Part shown: positions 1,335-14,182 of the stretch, piece after piece
How positions within the stretch are numbered: position 1 is the first letter of the stretch
How the letters are laid out: each line of letters starts with the position of its first letter
Virus record (IMG/VR): IMGVR_UViG_3300032084_001609
Span: 1-22,375 of that record
Source: a virus
Direction: 5' to 3' (one strand)
Length of the DNA: 22,375 nucleotides
Position numbers and translations under genes: made by a program
The notes under the pieces: generated by a model
Seen by the model: the letters and a program-made list of their open reading frames with translations, nothing else
Told to the model about the DNA's origin: nothing
Database searches by the model: none

Positions 1335-1456
1335 AAATAATGGACGTTATATTTATTGGAATGATGTTTATGATGACTATATCCCTGGTAGCCAAGGGAC
1401 ATTTGTATTTAGAGAACCGTATAAAAGAAGTTTATAAGGTTTGTAAGGAGAAATAA
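1331..1456 (+). CDS. 41-aa single-span membrane protein next to holin
   Basis: This short frame reads MKIMDVIFIGMMFMMTISLV and then a charged tail, AKGHLYLENRIKEVYKVCKEK. The first 20 residues form one hydrophobic span and the remainder is charged and helical, so an N-in, C-out single-pass topology is plausible. It overlaps the upstream gene by ATGA at 1331 and the holin by TAATG at 1456. The AAGGAG in its last codons is the holin SD. A membrane anchor plus charged helix beside a holin is what an inner-membrane spanin or a holin partner would look like. That is contextual inference, not family recognition. Confidence 0.65.
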   Translation: MKIMDVIFIGMMFMMTISLVAKGHLYLENRIKEVYKVCKEK

Positions 1457-1800
1457 TGTTAGATTTTATATCAAATATATTTAAACCAGCCGCAGATCTT
1501 GTTGATGAGTTGCATGTAAGCGATGAAGAGCGGCTTAAATTACGTAATGAATTAGCCAGAATACAGGCTGATATGCAAGCTAAGAGTGTTGAGTTAATGA
1601 CGGCTGAGGCTAAAAGTGACCATTTTATAGTGGCTGCCTGGAGACCTTTAATAGCTTTATTATTATTTAGTCTTATACTGGCAGACGGCTATGGATTGGC
1701 AAATGCTCCAGATCAAGTGTATAATTTAGCTGAGATCTTTCTAAGCGTTTATGGAGGATCTAGAGGACTTGAAAAAGTAGCAAGGATTATGAAGAAATGA
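1456..1800 (+). CDS. Holin, 3TM GTA-type family
   Basis: This 114-residue protein has the layout of the GTA_holin_3TM family. A short N-terminal segment (MLDFISNIFKPAADLVDEL) comes first. A long charged helix follows at about residues 20-57. Then come the conserved W-R-P turn (WRP at 62-64) with the hydrophobic span ALLLFSLILADGYG and a second segment, LAEIFLSVYGGSRGLEKVA, whose GG-S-R-G-x-E-K end is typical. Family members are small phage or gene transfer agent membrane proteins thought to permeabilise the inner membrane at lysis. The SD AAGGAG lies upstream within the preceding gene. The stop overlaps the HNH gene (ATGA at 1797). Its likely partner peptidase is on the opposite strand (6502-6852). 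Confidence 0.87.
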   Translation: MLDFISNIFKPAADLVDELHVSDEERLKLRNELARIQADMQAKSVELMTAEAKSDHFIVAAWRPLIALLLFSLILADGYGLANAPDQVYNLAEIFLSVYGGSRGLEKVARIMKK

Positions 1801-2801: not shown

Positions 2802-4844
2802 TTAATAGTTATGTACTTTCTTTGTTCTTGGTACGTGTGGTTGAGGAACTGGTCTAATAACTTCTTGCATATTAGGTATGTTTCCATTATTTCTAAGATC
2901 TTCTAACATTTCCATTCTTTGAGCAGCAGGTACATCTGACTGTTTTAATTGTCTTTCTAAAACTGCTTTATCAGCCGGATCATATACTTTTCCGCCAAAT
3001 CCTACACCTGGCTCAAACATGTCTTTAATATCTTCAATCTTACTTACACCATCCATAAAAGCATTGATAGCCTCATCACCGTCTTTTAAAGCCCGGTCAA
3101 AAGCAGGTAGAGATGTAGGTTGATTTAACTTAATATAGTTTCTAATATCTTTTTGCTTTAATTTAACATCTTCAGCAGTTCTTTGAATAGGGTTTTGAGA
3201 TAAATTTACTTGCCCAATAAGACCATATACAGTATCTTCAAACTTTTGATTATTCATCATTGCAGCAGAATTTAATCTTGTAGCAATTTCTCCTGAAGGC
3301 ATTGCATTAATAACATTTCCTACTTTCTTTAATCCTTCAGATAAGTATAAAGGAGTCTTAGGACTTCTAATGATTCTTTCTGCAATTGGACCTACAGCCA
3401 GACCAGCCGGACCCATACCAGTTGTAGCGGCTCCTGAGATAATCATAGATCTCATTCCGATAGCCTCTTTTAACATAGCCATAGGATTATCAGCTTGTCT
3501 GTATATAGCAGCTTCAACGCTTTCTTCTACAGTAGCCATGTTACCAAATTGTTTTCTAAGGTTCTTTACTTGACCGATTGCGTCATCAGCTTCAGTTGAA
3601 ACAGCGTCAAGAACTTCATCCATATGTTTACCCAGAGAAGTAGCGACTTTACGCTCTTGCTCTTTAGCAGCCGAGATGTCTAATCCGTTTCTCTTATAGA
3701 TGTTTTCAATTCTTTTTCTAATATCTTTTTGAAGTTTATGTGTTCTAGAAAGTGTCCACTTATCTTCTTGAACTACATCTTCAATAATCTTAGTTCCTTC
3801 TTGAGTAATTTCTTTTTTAAATCCTTTACTTTTTCTACCAATAGAAGAGATATATTCATCTAATTCTTTACCTATTTGGTTCATACCAGGGTCATCAGAG
3901 TTTCTAAAAGGTGCGGCTACATCGTCACTTAAAGATGCTTTTAAATCTGAAATATCAATATCAACTTTATGCGCCTCATCAATTTGCTTATATACTTTAC
4001 CAATTTGATTTCCTAATTGACCTTTTCTAACTTTAATTTTATCTATCATTAGTTCCGGCTTTTCAGAGAAGTTAACAACTACTTCGCCAGTATCATCCAT
4101 TTTCTGAGTTAATACGTCATTAAGAAATTCACTTTCTTTCTGGTTAGTTCTCTTTAAATGCTTATGGAATTGTTTCTTACTACTAACATTTTCAATTCCC
4201 ATTAGCTTCTTAGCAGCTTGAGAACCCATGTCATCAGCCTTATCTAGTAAGTATCTCCCACCTTTCTTAATACCTTTCATTAAGTAGTGACCACCAAGCT
4301 CCGATAAAGCCCCCATAGCACCGCCAGCAGCAACGTCAGAAATACCCCTATCTTCAGATCTAGATAATCCAGAAGCAGCCCCTGCACCAGCACCAGACAC
4401 AACACCTACTCCAAGTGGTGTCAAAGCAGCACCTAATTGAGTAGCTTTTAAAGCCGCTCCACCCGCTGCAAAAGTCGCCGCAGTTCCAGCTATATCGCCA
4501 GCAGCAAATGTCCACGGAGATTGTTCTTCAACATTTTTTAAGTCTTTATTTATTTCATCTAGGTTTTCTTTATAATTAGAGTAAGCCGTATCAAAAGATG
4601 CTCCGTCTTCTTCCATTGCATCAGCAATTCCGTCAGCAGCGGCTACACCATCTTTTAAGAAAGGGATACCTTGTACCCATCCAGCAGCAAGTGCTTCACC
4701 CGTAGTAGGTTCAACAGCGGCTCTAGCAGCTTCCATTTCTTCTACTGTAGGAGCAAAGTTTTGAGACCTTGCTTCCATGGCTTCTAGTTTTTCTAGTTCT
4801 TCTAACTCTTTAAGTTCCTGTTGTTCTGCTTTAGATAAAGCCAT
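2802..4844 (-). CDS. Large internal virion / DNA-ejection protein candidate
   Basis: This 680-residue protein has an acidic helical N-terminus (about 1-45, Glu/Leu/Ala-rich). An Ala/Gly-rich hydrophobic region follows at about 110-180 (FAAGDIAGTAATFAAGGAA, LGVGVVSGAGAGAASG). Next is a long charged coiled-coil-like central part (about 200-460), then a second small-residue hydrophobic patch (SGAATTGMGPAGLAVGP) and a Pro-rich basic C-terminus. This pattern of long helices with membrane-active Gly/Ala patches, last in a podovirus structural operon, resembles internal virion proteins that are injected to form a trans-envelope channel, as T7 gp15/gp16 are known to. No enzymatic motif was seen. The SD GGAGGA lies within the end of the preceding gene, and the ATG overlaps that gene's stop. 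Assignment is by composition and position. Confidence 0.6.
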   Translation of the reverse strand: MALSKAEQQELKELEELEKLEAMEARSQNFAPTVEEMEAARAAVEPTTGEALAAGWVQGIPFLKDGVAAADGIADAMEEDGASFDTAYSNYKENLDEINKDLKNVEEQSPWTFAAGDIAGTAATFAAGGAALKATQLGAALTPLGVGVVSGAGAGAASGLSRSEDRGISDVAAGGAMGALSELGGHYLMKGIKKGGRYLLDKADDMGSQAAKKLMGIENVSSKKQFHKHLKRTNQKESEFLNDVLTQKMDDTGEVVVNFSEKPELMIDKIKVRKGQLGNQIGKVYKQIDEAHKVDIDISDLKASLSDDVAAPFRNSDDPGMNQIGKELDEYISSIGRKSKGFKKEITQEGTKIIEDVVQEDKWTLSRTHKLQKDIRKRIENIYKRNGLDISAAKEQERKVATSLGKHMDEVLDAVSTEADDAIGQVKNLRKQFGNMATVEESVEAAIYRQADNPMAMLKEAIGMRSMIISGAATTGMGPAGLAVGPIAERIIRSPKTPLYLSEGLKKVGNVINAMPSGEIATRLNSAAMMNNQKFEDTVYGLIGQVNLSQNPIQRTAEDVKLKQKDIRNYIKLNQPTSLPAFDRALKDGDEAINAFMDGVSKIEDIKDMFEPGVGFGGKVYDPADKAVLERQLKQSDVPAAQRMEMLEDLRNNGNIPNMQEVIRPVPQPHVPRTKKVHNY

Positions 4845-6502
4845 TATTTCCTCCCTAATTTATTACGTAGTTCTTGTAGTCTTTTTCTTTGAAAATCTGA
4901 CATAACCTCTCTTCTAGGTTGTGTAACCTCTTTATTAGGTTGAGTAGGAATACCTGCGTCTCGAAGGCTATTTACTTCATTCATAATAGCTTTAATAGTC
5001 TCTTTTTTCATTGGCTGACCTTTCTTAATTGCATTAGCAAAAGCTTCTCTATGTGAAGTAATAATTCTTGTAAACACATCTAATTTACTCTTAAATACTT
5101 TTGGAGCATCTTTCTCCGAAGGAATAATGGAAGCGATTAAATCCATTTCTCTTTCGTTAACTTGTAGACCAGAAGTAGCTTTTTGGTATGCTAGCTTTGC
5201 AGCACTTGCTTCTGCCTTTAACTTATTAAATACTTCTGGAGAAGCGTCCATTAATTGACCCATACTCTGCATACGTCCTATTAAAGGACCAGTGCTTGCA
5301 TCCTTAAATAATCTATCTATTTCATTAATAGCGGACATTGAAGCGTCATAATCACCTAGTCTAGTTAGTTGTTTCTCAGATAATTGAGAATCTTTTCTAA
5401 TAGCGTGGGCAAATTTATCTTCAGATAACTCTTGCCTAATATCTGCTCTTTGTAAGTTCTTCTCTTGTCTAAAATTAATAGCGTTTTTAATCTTAGTTGC
5501 TGGAACTATATTATTCTCAGTATCTACATATTGACCAGTAGAAGGGTCAAATACAACTGGTTTACCGTCTGCTGTCATCCATTCTTTAGCTTGTTGTAGG
5601 TTTGGCTTATCAGTCCTACCTGTATTAGCCTCTAATAAATCTTTTTTATATTGAATGTAAGAGTCTCTAGCAATTCCACCTTCTCTATATCCAGCTACCA
5701 TTCCTTCGTCACCTTCTAACATTCCTCCTATAGCCCCTCCTATTAATTGAGGTGCAAAGAAAGTTAAGGCTTGTTTAAACTCTTCAGCTATTCCAGACTT
5801 CTTAGGAGCCTTTTCTAAACCCACAGCTTGTCTGGCAGATTTTTCTATACTCTTATCATTCTGTAAATGCTTAATGACTTTTTTAGTTTGTTTCTGATCT
5901 AGATCCGGGTTTTCAACAACGGCTTGAGCAATTTCTTCTTTATTTTTAGAAATAAGAGATGCTCTAGCAGCGGCTTCTACTTCTTTACTCATTCTTTCTT
6001 TTTCAGGTTGTTCTATTAACTCACCTCTAAGTAGTTTTTGAACCGGTCCTGTAGAAACATCAGATAAAGGCGTAGGTCCTTTGAAAAAGCCGGCTTCATT
6101 GGCAGGTATATCAGAGCCTTCTCCTAACCCTTCCTGTAAGAATATTCCTGCCGCTCCTGCTAAGGGTCCTACAAATTTACTTACTTTAGATAGTCCTTTA
6201 ACTATTTTTTTAGAAGATTTTTTTAATGCATGTTTTACGGGAAGTCCTGCCTTCTTTTTTATTGCAGGTACAGAAGCCTTCGGGTCAGGTATTGTGAAAT
6301 TGGGGGAAGAAGGTTTCTTTGTAGTAGGTTTTCCTTTTAAGGTAAAGGAGTCTCCTCTAGCTTTAGATGTTCGTCTAGGAGAAGTGTCCTTTATATGTTT
6401 TTTCTCAACATCCTTATATTTTTTCTCCCTAGCTCTTTTTGCAGCCTTTTTTTTAGCTCTTTCTAAAGCCTTTATGTTTTCCTTGCTTCTAAAATCCTTC
6501 AT
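4844..6502 (-). CDS. Internal virion / DNA-ejection protein candidate
   Basis: This is a 552-residue protein. I start it at the ATG at 6502, which overlaps the upstream TGA (TGATG), rather than at the TTG one codon earlier. The first 110 residues are extremely Lys/Arg-rich (ALERAKKKAAKRAREKKYKD), with Ser/Pro stretches, so they could bind DNA. Short hydrophobic Gly/Ala segments follow (FVGPLAGAAGIFLQEG near 113-128, FFAPQLIGGAIGGMLEG near 250-267), then a helical C-terminal half. It sits between the M15 peptidase and the 680-aa protein and resembles it in overall style. No catalytic motif is visible. An ejected virion protein is the best reading; a scaffold-like or packaging role cannot be excluded. 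Confidence 0.55.
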   Translation of the reverse strand: MKDFRSKENIKALERAKKKAAKRAREKKYKDVEKKHIKDTSPRRTSKARGDSFTLKGKPTTKKPSSPNFTIPDPKASVPAIKKKAGLPVKHALKKSSKKIVKGLSKVSKFVGPLAGAAGIFLQEGLGEGSDIPANEAGFFKGPTPLSDVSTGPVQKLLRGELIEQPEKERMSKEVEAAARASLISKNKEEIAQAVVENPDLDQKQTKKVIKHLQNDKSIEKSARQAVGLEKAPKKSGIAEEFKQALTFFAPQLIGGAIGGMLEGDEGMVAGYREGGIARDSYIQYKKDLLEANTGRTDKPNLQQAKEWMTADGKPVVFDPSTGQYVDTENNIVPATKIKNAINFRQEKNLQRADIRQELSEDKFAHAIRKDSQLSEKQLTRLGDYDASMSAINEIDRLFKDASTGPLIGRMQSMGQLMDASPEVFNKLKAEASAAKLAYQKATSGLQVNEREMDLIASIIPSEKDAPKVFKSKLDVFTRIITSHREAFANAIKKGQPMKKETIKAIMNEVNSLRDAGIPTQPNKEVTQPRREVMSDFQRKRLQELRNKLGRK

Positions 6503-6852
6503 CAATATTTTCCTTTACCAAAATAAGGTTTCTTTCTTATATCAACATGAATATGATTTGGGTACACAATGACCCCATTAAAATATTTTTTAGCTATTTG
6601 AGCAATATCATCAAAATGAGTAAGACATTTAGGGAATACTAGATCCAGTGCCTTACCGTGTAAATGGTATGAATTCTTAGCTCCGCCTACAGCTTTGTTT
6701 TTCTTTGGACTTCTATAACCAGAAGAAATAATTGGCTTACAGGATAATTCTTTTTTGAACTCTTCGTATGCTTTTAAAAGCTTTTTATTCAACCCTTTTG
6801 CTGAAACATTAAAGCTTAATATGAATGTTAGTATTAATATAAGTCTTTTAAT
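6502..6852 (-). CDS. Exported M15 peptidase (endolysin), apparent ATT start
   Basis: Read from ATT at 6852 the product is 116 residues. It has a Sec signal peptide, MKRLILILTFILSFNVSA (A18 at -1, V16 at -3), then a Peptidase_M15_3-type domain. Conserved features are SSGYRSPKKNKAVGG, then S-x-H-x-x-G-x-A-x-D (H63, D70), and H-x-H-V-D near the C-terminus (H100, H102, D104). These are the zinc and catalytic positions of the D,D-/L,D-carboxypeptidase-like fold used by phage endolysins. The first conventional start is TTG at 6792, which has no spaced SD and deletes the signal peptide. An in-frame TAA lies four codons before ATT, so no upstream ATG is possible. AGAGGA at 6860-6865 is 7 nt from ATT. 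The gene overlaps the GNAT-like gene by 19 bases. Either an ATT start or a sequencing error at that base would explain this. Confidence 0.82.
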   Translation of the reverse strand: MKRLILILTFILSFNVSAKGLNKKLLKAYEEFKKELSCKPIISSGYRSPKKNKAVGGAKNSYHLHGKALDLVFPKCLTHFDDIAQIAKKYFNGVIVYPNHIHVDIRKKPYFGKGKY

Positions 6853-7157
6853 ATCGTTATCCTCTTATCAGTTACATTTATTATTTTAGCACCATGACCT
6901 AATTGAATCAAAACTTTCTTTGTGTAGGTTTCGACATTATGGTCATTTAGGTCTATATTTCCAGTAATATACTTACAGCCTACCTTCTTGGCAATTTCTG
7001 TAATTTCTTTATAGAAGCTATAACCTTTGCCTTTTTCGGCAAAAAGATGGGCAATAAAAAACTCATCCCCATCGTAAACATAAGCACAGAAACCATCGTC
7101 GGTATAATGAACTTCATACCCTTCTTCCTGAGCCCAATACTTTTTTAATTTCTCCAT
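6834..7157 (-). CDS. GNAT-like fold protein
   Basis: This 107-residue protein has an order of segments like a compact acetyltransferase fold. An N-terminal helix and strands come first (WAQEEGYEVHYTDDG, FFIAHLFAEKGKGYSFYKEI). Then a helix with IAKKVGCKYITGNIDLNDHN, a small helix, and the strands GHGAKIINVTDKRITILKD. The pattern of a helix, then G-x-x-x-I-x-x-x-I/V-D-x-N, then a late strand pair is common in phage GNAT-like proteins. T7 internal virion protein gp13 has been related to GNAT folds, which fits the position beside ejection-type genes. The acetyl-CoA loop is not obvious, so activity is uncertain. The SD GGAGG is 6 nt upstream. Its start overlaps the Hint-protein gene by 44 bases. 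Confidence 0.55.
   Translation of the reverse strand: MEKLKKYWAQEEGYEVHYTDDGFCAYVYDGDEFFIAHLFAEKGKGYSFYKEITEIAKKVGCKYITGNIDLNDHNVETYTKKVLIQLGHGAKIINVTDKRITILKDLY
6860..6865 (-). promoter_or_regulatory. Ribosome site deciding the ATT start of the M15 peptidase
   Basis: On the - strand AGAGGA lies 7 nt before ATT at 6852, inside the 3' end of the GNAT-like gene. No ATG, GTG or TTG lies between the preceding in-frame stop and this position. The TTG at 6792 has only an A/G run directly abutting it. Confidence 0.6.
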
Positions 7158-8247
7158 TTAAAACCTCCAAACTTTCCTTGTCATTAATCTTACTTCCTAA
7201 GTCTGTCTCATCATAATCTGCAAATTCTATGCCATTATTTGAGATAATCCTGTGGTCTTCATTACTTAGGTTATATACAGCAAAAATTCCTTCTTGCTTA
7301 AATGCTCTTACAGAGTCTTCTATTCTAATCCATTTACCATCTTCTAGGACAGCGTGTCCTCCAGTAACTAAATTATTCTTATATTGGTAGATCTCAGTTA
7401 CAAGTGCTTGAAATAACGAGTAAACAATTCCTCCCTCAGCTAATCTGTCACCTAATTTAATATTCTCAATATTCTTAGAAGTACCGTCTTCCATTAAGAT
7501 CTTAGTGCCTTCAATAAAACATCCGCTTGATTTACTTGCTTTAGCAGCCTGTACTTGAGCCAAACGAGCAGCTTCTGCCCCTCTTTCTGTAGCGCCTAAT
7601 CCGGCAAATCCTAAACCAGCTTGTAAAGCGATATCTTTTTCTTTAGCTGCTTGAGATATGTCAAATTGACGTACACCAGTAACTAAATCTGCTTGAGCCT
7701 GGAACCCCTGCATTTGAGCTTCGCGATCTGCGATAATTAGGTCTCTCTCAAGGTTTCCTCTAGCCTGTACGCCTCCTAAGGCTATTTGCCCTAATTGAGC
7801 CCCAGCGGCTTGACCTTTAACACCGGATCTAGCTAATGCTGCCTGAGCGGCTCTAGATTGGGCTTGAGTCCCTGATGTAATAGCCTCTAGACCCTTTTCT
7901 TTTCTGGCTTGCATTTCTTCAGAACTGAATCCTTTAGCTAATTCCGCAGCCTGGGCTTCCATAGCTTGGACAGTAGCGTCTGTTCCTAATCTACCTAAAC
8001 CTTCTCCAACTACAGCTTCTCCAAACTCAGCGCCAGTTACAAGATCTTTCTGTAACGCTGTAGGAGATACCCCTACTTTCTTTTTAATTCTTTCAGAGAC
8101 AGTTTTACCTTCCATAGCGTCTAATTCTTTTTGTTTGGCGACTTTTGCTGCGTCTTGATCTGAGTTCTGTTTTGCAAACTTTTGTTCCACTTTCTTCAGA
8201 TTTTCCTTAAGCTTACTCAGATCTCCTGTTTTACCAAATCCGTTCAT
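7114..8247 (-). CDS. Virion (ejection-type) protein with C-terminal Hint domain
   Basis: This is a 377-residue protein. Residues 1-240 are helical and Ala/Gln/Gly-rich (QAQSRAAQAALARSGVKGQA, AAGAQLGQIALGGVQ), like podovirus internal virion proteins. From C243 a Hint (Hedgehog/intein-type) domain begins: CFIEGTKILMEDGTSKNIEN, then KLGDRL, then LVTGGHAVLEDGKW (block-B-like T295-x-x-H298), then VYNLSNEDHRIISNNGIEFA (H332). A 28-residue tail follows. The C-terminal His-Asn plus nucleophile of splicing inteins is absent, so splicing is not expected. N-terminal thioester cleavage at C243, as in Hedgehog-type Hint proteins, is possible. Start: ATG with AGGAG upstream. The last 44 bases overlap the GNAT-like gene. 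Confidence 0.8.
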   Translation of the reverse strand: MNGFGKTGDLSKLKENLKKVEQKFAKQNSDQDAAKVAKQKELDAMEGKTVSERIKKKVGVSPTALQKDLVTGAEFGEAVVGEGLGRLGTDATVQAMEAQAAELAKGFSSEEMQARKEKGLEAITSGTQAQSRAAQAALARSGVKGQAAGAQLGQIALGGVQARGNLERDLIIADREAQMQGFQAQADLVTGVRQFDISQAAKEKDIALQAGLGFAGLGATERGAEAARLAQVQAAKASKSSGCFIEGTKILMEDGTSKNIENIKLGDRLAEGGIVYSLFQALVTEIYQYKNNLVTGGHAVLEDGKWIRIEDSVRAFKQEGIFAVYNLSNEDHRIISNNGIEFADYDETDLGSKINDKESLEVLNGEIKKVLGSGRRV

Positions 8248-13660: not shown

Positions 13661-14182
13661 CTACTTCTCCTTTATATATGAAAATGTTTTTCCTTTAAAA
13701 GATTTACACTTTCCTTTTAATAGTTTACTTAAATGGGCGTTATCCCCTTTATAAAAATTAGCTGCATCTTTTACACTTCTAAAACATATTTGATCTTCTA
13801 TGCAAAGAACAGGTTTTCTAATTTTTCTCATTCTATTTTCTGTATGCTCTGGCTTTTCTTTCTTACCTAAACGGCTTAGTCTTATTTTTTCAATGGATTT
13901 CTTAGTAAGCCTAATTTGACCTCCTTCCATTAAATTATATCCGTTTGGGTACATTGTATTATAACTCTTTATTAACTGTTTTTCAGCTTTATTTAAGTAT
14001 TCTGTATCGAAAGAATTAAAAAGAATTTCTACTTTAAAATTTTCTTCTCCGTATTTTCTATAAGCGTTTCCAATAGCAAAAGGACCTATTTTATGTCTAT
14101 CTATTCTCCTAGATACATTTTGTATAGTTTGTCCTATATATTTTTTACCGTTTAATGTGTTTGTTATACAGTATATAACCAA
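13661..14182 (-). CDS. GIY-YIG homing-type endonuclease, TTG start
   Basis: This is a 173-residue protein. The catalytic GIY-YIG signature appears as VIY (2-4) and KYIGQT (14-19), with a conserved Arg in RRIDRH and the later Glu in LNKAEKQLIKSY. A linker rich in basic residues follows. The C-terminus (about 118-170) is a DNA-binding IENR1/NUMOD-like module: KPVLCIEDQICFRSVKDAAN, then HLSKLLKGKCKSFKGKTF. The TTG at 14182 is the only start near the AGGAG upstream that keeps the VIY strand intact. It lies between a 58-aa gene and the fibre gene, and its last codons provide the fibre's SD. It is a probable selfish insertion; mobility is inferred. Confidence 0.9.
   Translation of the reverse strand: MVIYCITNTLNGKKYIGQTIQNVSRRIDRHKIGPFAIGNAYRKYGEENFKVEILFNSFDTEYLNKAEKQLIKSYNTMYPNGYNLMEGGQIRLTKKSIEKIRLSRLGKKEKPEHTENRMRKIRKPVLCIEDQICFRSVKDAANFYKGDNAHLSKLLKGKCKSFKGKTFSYIKEK

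Follow-up and report, generated by a model that had tools for sequence, protein, structure and literature searches.

How is translation of a phage peptidase gene begun when the only start-like codon behind its Shine–Dalgarno (SD) sequence is ATT, and what would the N-terminal segment gained from that start do for the enzyme? The question arises from an IMG/VR virus record of 22,375 bases, the whole of which was analysed and is referred to here as the window. ATG starts 21 of the 22 tabulated window genes; the exception is the gene of an M15 peptidase, tabulated with a mechanically assigned TTG (Table 1). The comparisons described below make it likely that this gene is translated from AUU, under the direction of its SD and probably in coupling with an overlapping GNAT-like gene, to give a 116-aa M15 endolysin exported by the Sec route.

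Table 1. Features of the window that bear on initiation and export of the M15 enzyme
Feature	Position	Strand	Evidence
M15 peptidase (endolysin-like) CDS from ATT, 116 codons	6505..6852 (stop 6502-6504)	minus	Open frame, Pfam, PHROG, fold
Proposed ATT start codon of the M15 gene	6850..6852	minus	Sole start-like codon in SD range; ATT shared with L002 and G012
SD sequence AGAGGA, 7 nt ahead of ATT	6860..6865	minus	AGGATAAC identical across three phages
Putative Sec signal peptide (first 18 residues; cleavage predicted after VSA)	6799..6852	minus	Hydropathy, shuffles, model, equivalent segment in four homologues
TTG, mechanical alternative M15 start	6790..6792	minus	No spaced SD; L002 and G012 do not keep this codon as a start
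Upstream gene, 107-aa GNAT-fold protein	6834..7157	minus	AlphaFold pLDDT 81, Foldseek to GNAT acetyltransferases; conserved in L002 and G012
Holin-like gene, possible partner	1456..1800	plus	PHROG 3427 holin, E 2.6e-16; Pfam GTA_holin_3TM

The ATT-headed frame and its relatives

The M15 frame of the window reads TAA (6867-6865) GAG GAT AAC GAT ATT (6852-6850) AAA AGA CTT and, further on, GTT TCA GCA AAA GGG TTG (6792). Four codons thus lie between the in-frame TAA and ATT, none of them ATG, GTG or TTG. No near-cognate start other than ATT lies at a suitable distance from the SD, AGAGGA (6865-6860), whereas AAAGGG abuts TTG 6792 directly, with zero spacer. On these points the preliminary description was accurate: it had placed AGAGGA 7 nt from ATT, had found no canonical start from the TAA to ATT and had denied TTG a spaced SD. 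Translated from ATT, the N-terminus is (fMet)KRLILILTFILSFNVSA, followed after the predicted cut site by KGLNKK...; a start at TTG would drop the signal segment. The SD is created by an AGG arginine codon of the GNAT-like gene, AGG accounting for 11% of the Arg codons in the window, and the fact that this codon behind the SD is conserved also hints at selection for initiation. RNA structure around the ATT start is not unusual (z -0.5 to +0.4).

Two related phages, L002 (IMGVR 3300045135_002557) and G012 (3300008255_000037, 42.7 kb), share the gene order of the window (tail protein, Hint-tailed protein, GNAT-like protein, M15, virion-type proteins), and their M15 proteins are 81% and 60% identical, respectively, to that of the window. 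Neither M15 frame contains ATG, GTG or TTG ahead of the signal segment: that of L002 reads TAA GAG GAT AAC GAT ATT AAA AAA ATT and that of G012 TAA CAA CAG GAT AAC AGT ATT AAA ACA TTT. The window, L002 and G012 carry AGGATAAC and TATTAAAA as identical blocks, and ATT and the SD core are kept in all three. Because two of the three ATT sequences are close (GNAT 97% identical), they represent about two independent ATT lineages. Scans of viral and genome contigs with M15, GNAT, tail proteins, major capsid protein and DNA motifs found no further ATT-type relatives; the major capsid protein scan comprised 31 contigs, few of them extending to the M15 region. A phage collection gave distant M15 homologues only and no GNAT or adaptor matches. 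L063, from the same phage group, has neither the GNAT gene nor the signal-bearing M15 gene and is therefore uninformative on the start codon.

The coincidence of SD, ATT and signal segment was assessed with a filter that looks for an SD, an open frame of 20 codons and agreement with simple criteria for a signal peptide, applied to all ATT triplets on both strands. It passes one of 1,300 ATT in the window, one of 960 in the scanned G012 stretch and one of 697 in L002, always that of the M15 gene. Base shuffles of the signal segment satisfy the peptide criteria in 0.006-0.05%, rates that are only indicative, as the filter was defined after the sequence had been seen and differs from SignalP. Widening the filter to ten start-like codons and to the complete G012 record still leaves one ATT match per phage; the few other matches (ATA, ATG) all open frames no longer than 45 codons.

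Several features of the surrounding genes were also recorded. The virion-module protein at 7114-8247 (minus strand) of the window has a Hint-like (intein/hedgehog-type) C-terminus, CFIEGTKILMEDGTSKNIENIKLGDRL, which scores under the Pfam cut-off; it is present in L002 and G012 and missing from the equivalent L063 gene. In L063 the counterpart of the virion protein that follows the window M15 gene (4764-6722, minus strand) contains an M15-like N-terminal stretch, VRVTSGDRG...SNHSKGNAFDLV...HTHID; it has no signal peptide and no Pfam match and is possibly a virion-associated M15 version. A GIY-YIG-type homing endonuclease gene (13661-14182, minus strand) lies amid the structural genes of the window, and genes for small paralogous proteins whose repeats (MNIDEELDKARKEAYSAARSA...) are rich in alanine and serine are clustered at 2616-4272 of L068 (G012), minus strand.

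The signal segment and the enzyme

The M15 protein matches Pfam Peptidase_M15_3 (PF08291; E 2.3e-15, 57.1 bits against a curated cut-off of 23.2) and PHROG 894, endolysin (E 7.2e-19). Its zinc-site residues His63, Asp70 and His102 are kept in five close homologues and nearly all others, and its predicted fold (pLDDT 87) is matched best by Foldseek to the DD-peptidase 1LBU and to phage endolysins. On the basis of family membership, the enzyme most likely serves as the phage endolysin, the alternative being a different periplasmic peptidoglycan peptidase. The holin-like gene has a homologue in G012, and a scan covering ten G012 proteins found none that resembled another endolysin. The M15 gene sits in the virion module, but its product is unlikely to be carried in the virion, given the putative signal peptide.

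By simple criteria, the N-terminus of the window protein has the charged n-region, the hydrophobic core and the small residues at -3 and -1 of a Sec signal peptide. In the AlphaFold model a separate N-terminal helix (residues 2-14) is followed by a stretch of low confidence (15-18), and the confidently predicted domain begins at about residue 21. The signal segments of L002 (KKIIILLTFTITTTASS, then K) and G012 (KTFILITLLLSNLSFS, then K) have diverged; the charge, the hydrophobic core and the small residues before Lys are retained in all three phages. Two more distant M15 homologues, G017 (3300033148_003616) and L003 (3300017963_001161), are stand-alone, ATG-started proteins with a signal-peptide-like N-terminus at the equivalent place. 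The segment is accordingly found in all five nearest proteins, started by ATT in three and by ATG in two, and the homologue comparison bears out the preliminary description, whose proposal of an AUU start with a Sec signal peptide is supported by the SD, the open frame, the signal-like segment and the relatives. As far as these sequences go, the predicted export signal is a property of this M15 clade, ATT standing where others use ATG.

All five signal-bearing M15 proteins share the pair Cys38 and Cys76, the second Cys of L003 being shifted by one alignment column, whereas the pair is absent from all 26 other phage and bacterial M15 homologues compared. Among these 26, L076 has a lipoprotein-like N-terminus and is probably exported despite missing the Cys pair. 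Since a disulfide is expected only outside the cytoplasm, the pair fits a periplasmic enzyme, in which Cys38 and Cys76 would probably be linked. The proposed AUU initiation of the M15 gene is strongly supported and the predicted export of the enzyme is well supported; the first 18 residues would act as the Sec signal peptide and be cut off probably before Lys19.

The segment translated from AUU might instead remain uncleaved as a SAR anchor, tethering an inactive enzyme up to the point at which a holin or pinholin dissipates the membrane potential. The phage has a holin-like gene, holins are known to activate SAR endolysins (PMC7143992) and the L002 segment is rich in Thr, Ser and Ala. However, small residues at -3 and -1 recur before Lys (VSA, ASS, SFS), the core of the window segment is strongly hydrophobic and the G017 segment ends A-E-A; we regard a SAR anchor as unlikely.

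Two products might be made, one exported from AUU and one cytoplasmic from an internal start. An embedded second endolysin is known from phage Ms6 (PMC3111421), and all three phages happen to have a downstream ATG or TTG near residues 21-25. These candidates, however, stand at different places (residues 21, 25 and 25 in the window, L002 and G012, respectively); neither their positions nor their SDs are conserved, and those of L002 and G012 fall within the first helix of the M15 domain predicted for the window protein by AlphaFold, which leaves a dual product improbable. If translation began exclusively at an internal codon, TTG 6792 or some other, the upstream segment would be left untranslated and the product would be a cytoplasmic endolysin released by the holin. 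TTG is a standard start and the M15 domain begins at about residue 22, which together with the holin-like gene would suit such an arrangement, but the TTG lacks a spaced SD and its codon is not conserved in the relatives, while the upstream segment stays open and signal-like despite sequence divergence. With the Cys pair and the signal borne by the ATG-started homologues also against it, an internal start alone is very improbable.

Overlap with the GNAT-like gene

The M15 gene is overlapped over 19 nt by the upstream GNAT-like gene, a circumstance absent from the preliminary description. In the model of the GNAT-fold protein, the last strand (residues 99-105) is coded across the SD and ATT, and any NTG at the ATT site would convert GNAT codon 103 into TGN, replacing a conserved Leu by Cys, Trp or a stop. 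ATT is plausibly a compromise between two overlapping genes, kept since any NTG there would alter this Leu, and the overlap may be a simpler, constraint-based reason for its retention than lysis timing. As ATT lies in codons conserved for GNAT, its conservation is not creditable to initiation alone. Synonymous conservation within the overlap (six of seven codons identical, against 24 of 43 in codons 16-97) is in the right direction, the sample being too small to count.

Within the GNAT gene, the +1 frame contains a 45-aa ORF (6980-7117, minus strand; MKFIIPTMVSVLMFTMGMSFLLPIFLPKKAKVIASIKKLQKLPRR) that starts with ATG, has AGGA upstream and encodes a transmembrane stretch and a basic tail; in G012 a 50-aa ORF begins at the same ATG. 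Synonymous shuffles are equally open and hydrophobic in 7% (window) and 4% (G012) of cases, and no raised synonymous conservation is found at this ORF.

Relative to GNAT, M15 is read in the -1 frame, an arrangement in which a programmed -1 frameshift would produce a GNAT-transmembrane-M15 fusion and dispense with AUU initiation. In the dnaX frameshift layout a slippery A run follows an SD-like element, and L002 resembles it in having A AAA AAA about 10 nt past the SD-like AGAGGA. No slippery heptamer is conserved across the three phages, this run being confined to L002; an X XXY YYZ heptamer is absent from the window (TTA AAA GAC) and from G012 (TTA AAA CAT). The SD spacing suits ATT, and the stand-alone, ATG-started homologues of G017 and L003 make a fusion unnecessary; frameshifting is thus highly unlikely. 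Metagenomic contigs contain errors, but a sequencing or assembly error hiding a true ATG is in practice ruled out as the source of ATT by its agreement in three separate records with M15 proteins 60-81% identical, and ATG at this site would truncate GNAT (TGA) in each phage.

Under the preferred reading, AUU initiation of an exported M15 enzyme, AGAGGA would direct translation from AUU 6852 into the 116-aa zinc peptidase. Both the SD and AUU fall within the final codons of the GNAT gene, so that initiation, itself probably weak, is probably coupled to GNAT translation; GNAT ribosomes would terminate within 19 nt beyond AUU, and re-initiation may supply much of the initiation. Re-initiation in E. 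coli is enhanced by an SD and reduced by excess IF3 (PMC2268962). IF3 discriminates against codons such as AUU (PMC5472188), and in S. aureus grown in RPMI medium a conserved AUU start with a strong SD yields about 10% of what AUG gives (PMC13009471). An exported hydrolase would be active as made, so that low synthesis would be useful, and the weak start may possibly also have been retained to limit a harmful enzyme. Lysis timing through the weak AUU start is speculation. Its most explicit version is a built-in timer, in which rejection by IF3 holds the exported endolysin low until a late shift in the IF3-to-ribosome ratio, or heavy GNAT translation drives re-initiation, tying lysis to the translation state of the host; this we consider doubtful.

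Precedents and implications

An internal AUU start occurs in gene 26 of the tailed phage T4; it is the internal start of a baseplate gene, whereas here AUU would start an enzyme with a signal peptide. The infC and pcnB genes of E. coli, cited as AUU precedents in the preliminary description, are genuine cases (infC, PMC5472188; pcnB, as cited in PMC13009471). They and S. aureus cvfC1 likewise have AUU with a well-placed SD, conserved in relatives, and low expression is expected (PMC5472188, PMC13009471). They are, however, cellular genes, while the present case is a phage lysis-type enzyme whose start is nested in an upstream gene, with no known feedback. The GTC start of Streptomyces sigR is another rare non-NTG start, limiting a protein harmful in excess (PMC5472188), although codon, host and function all differ.

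Among exported endolysins, Lys44 of Oenococcus phage fOg44 has a cleavable Sec signal peptide (described in PMC7143992), but it belongs to a Gram-positive host and is a different enzyme. The SAR endolysins of P1, 21 and phiKMV share the Sec-dependent, holin-independent export proposed here (PMC7143992); their N-terminal anchor is uncleaved, whereas the segments described here have signal-peptidase-type sites. The phage M15 L-Ala-D-Glu endolysins LysECD7, RB49, T5 and Ply500 have the same M15 fold and His/Asp/His metal-site residues, and the sampled phage M15 homologues have neither the signal segment nor the Cys pair of the window clade. A literature search for an AUU/ATT start in a phage or endolysin found no direct precedent. 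AUU starts are known and exported endolysins are known; their combination would be new.

Gene callers limited to ATG, GTG and TTG would give a shorter, seemingly cytoplasmic enzyme and conceal its export signal. Should initiation at AUU prove real, other phage enzymes may have export signals that go unnoticed in this way, and the choice of start codon would be a candidate point of control over lysis enzymes exported without a holin. The M15/GNAT pair is a clear candidate for a poor start codon being held in place by an overlapping gene.
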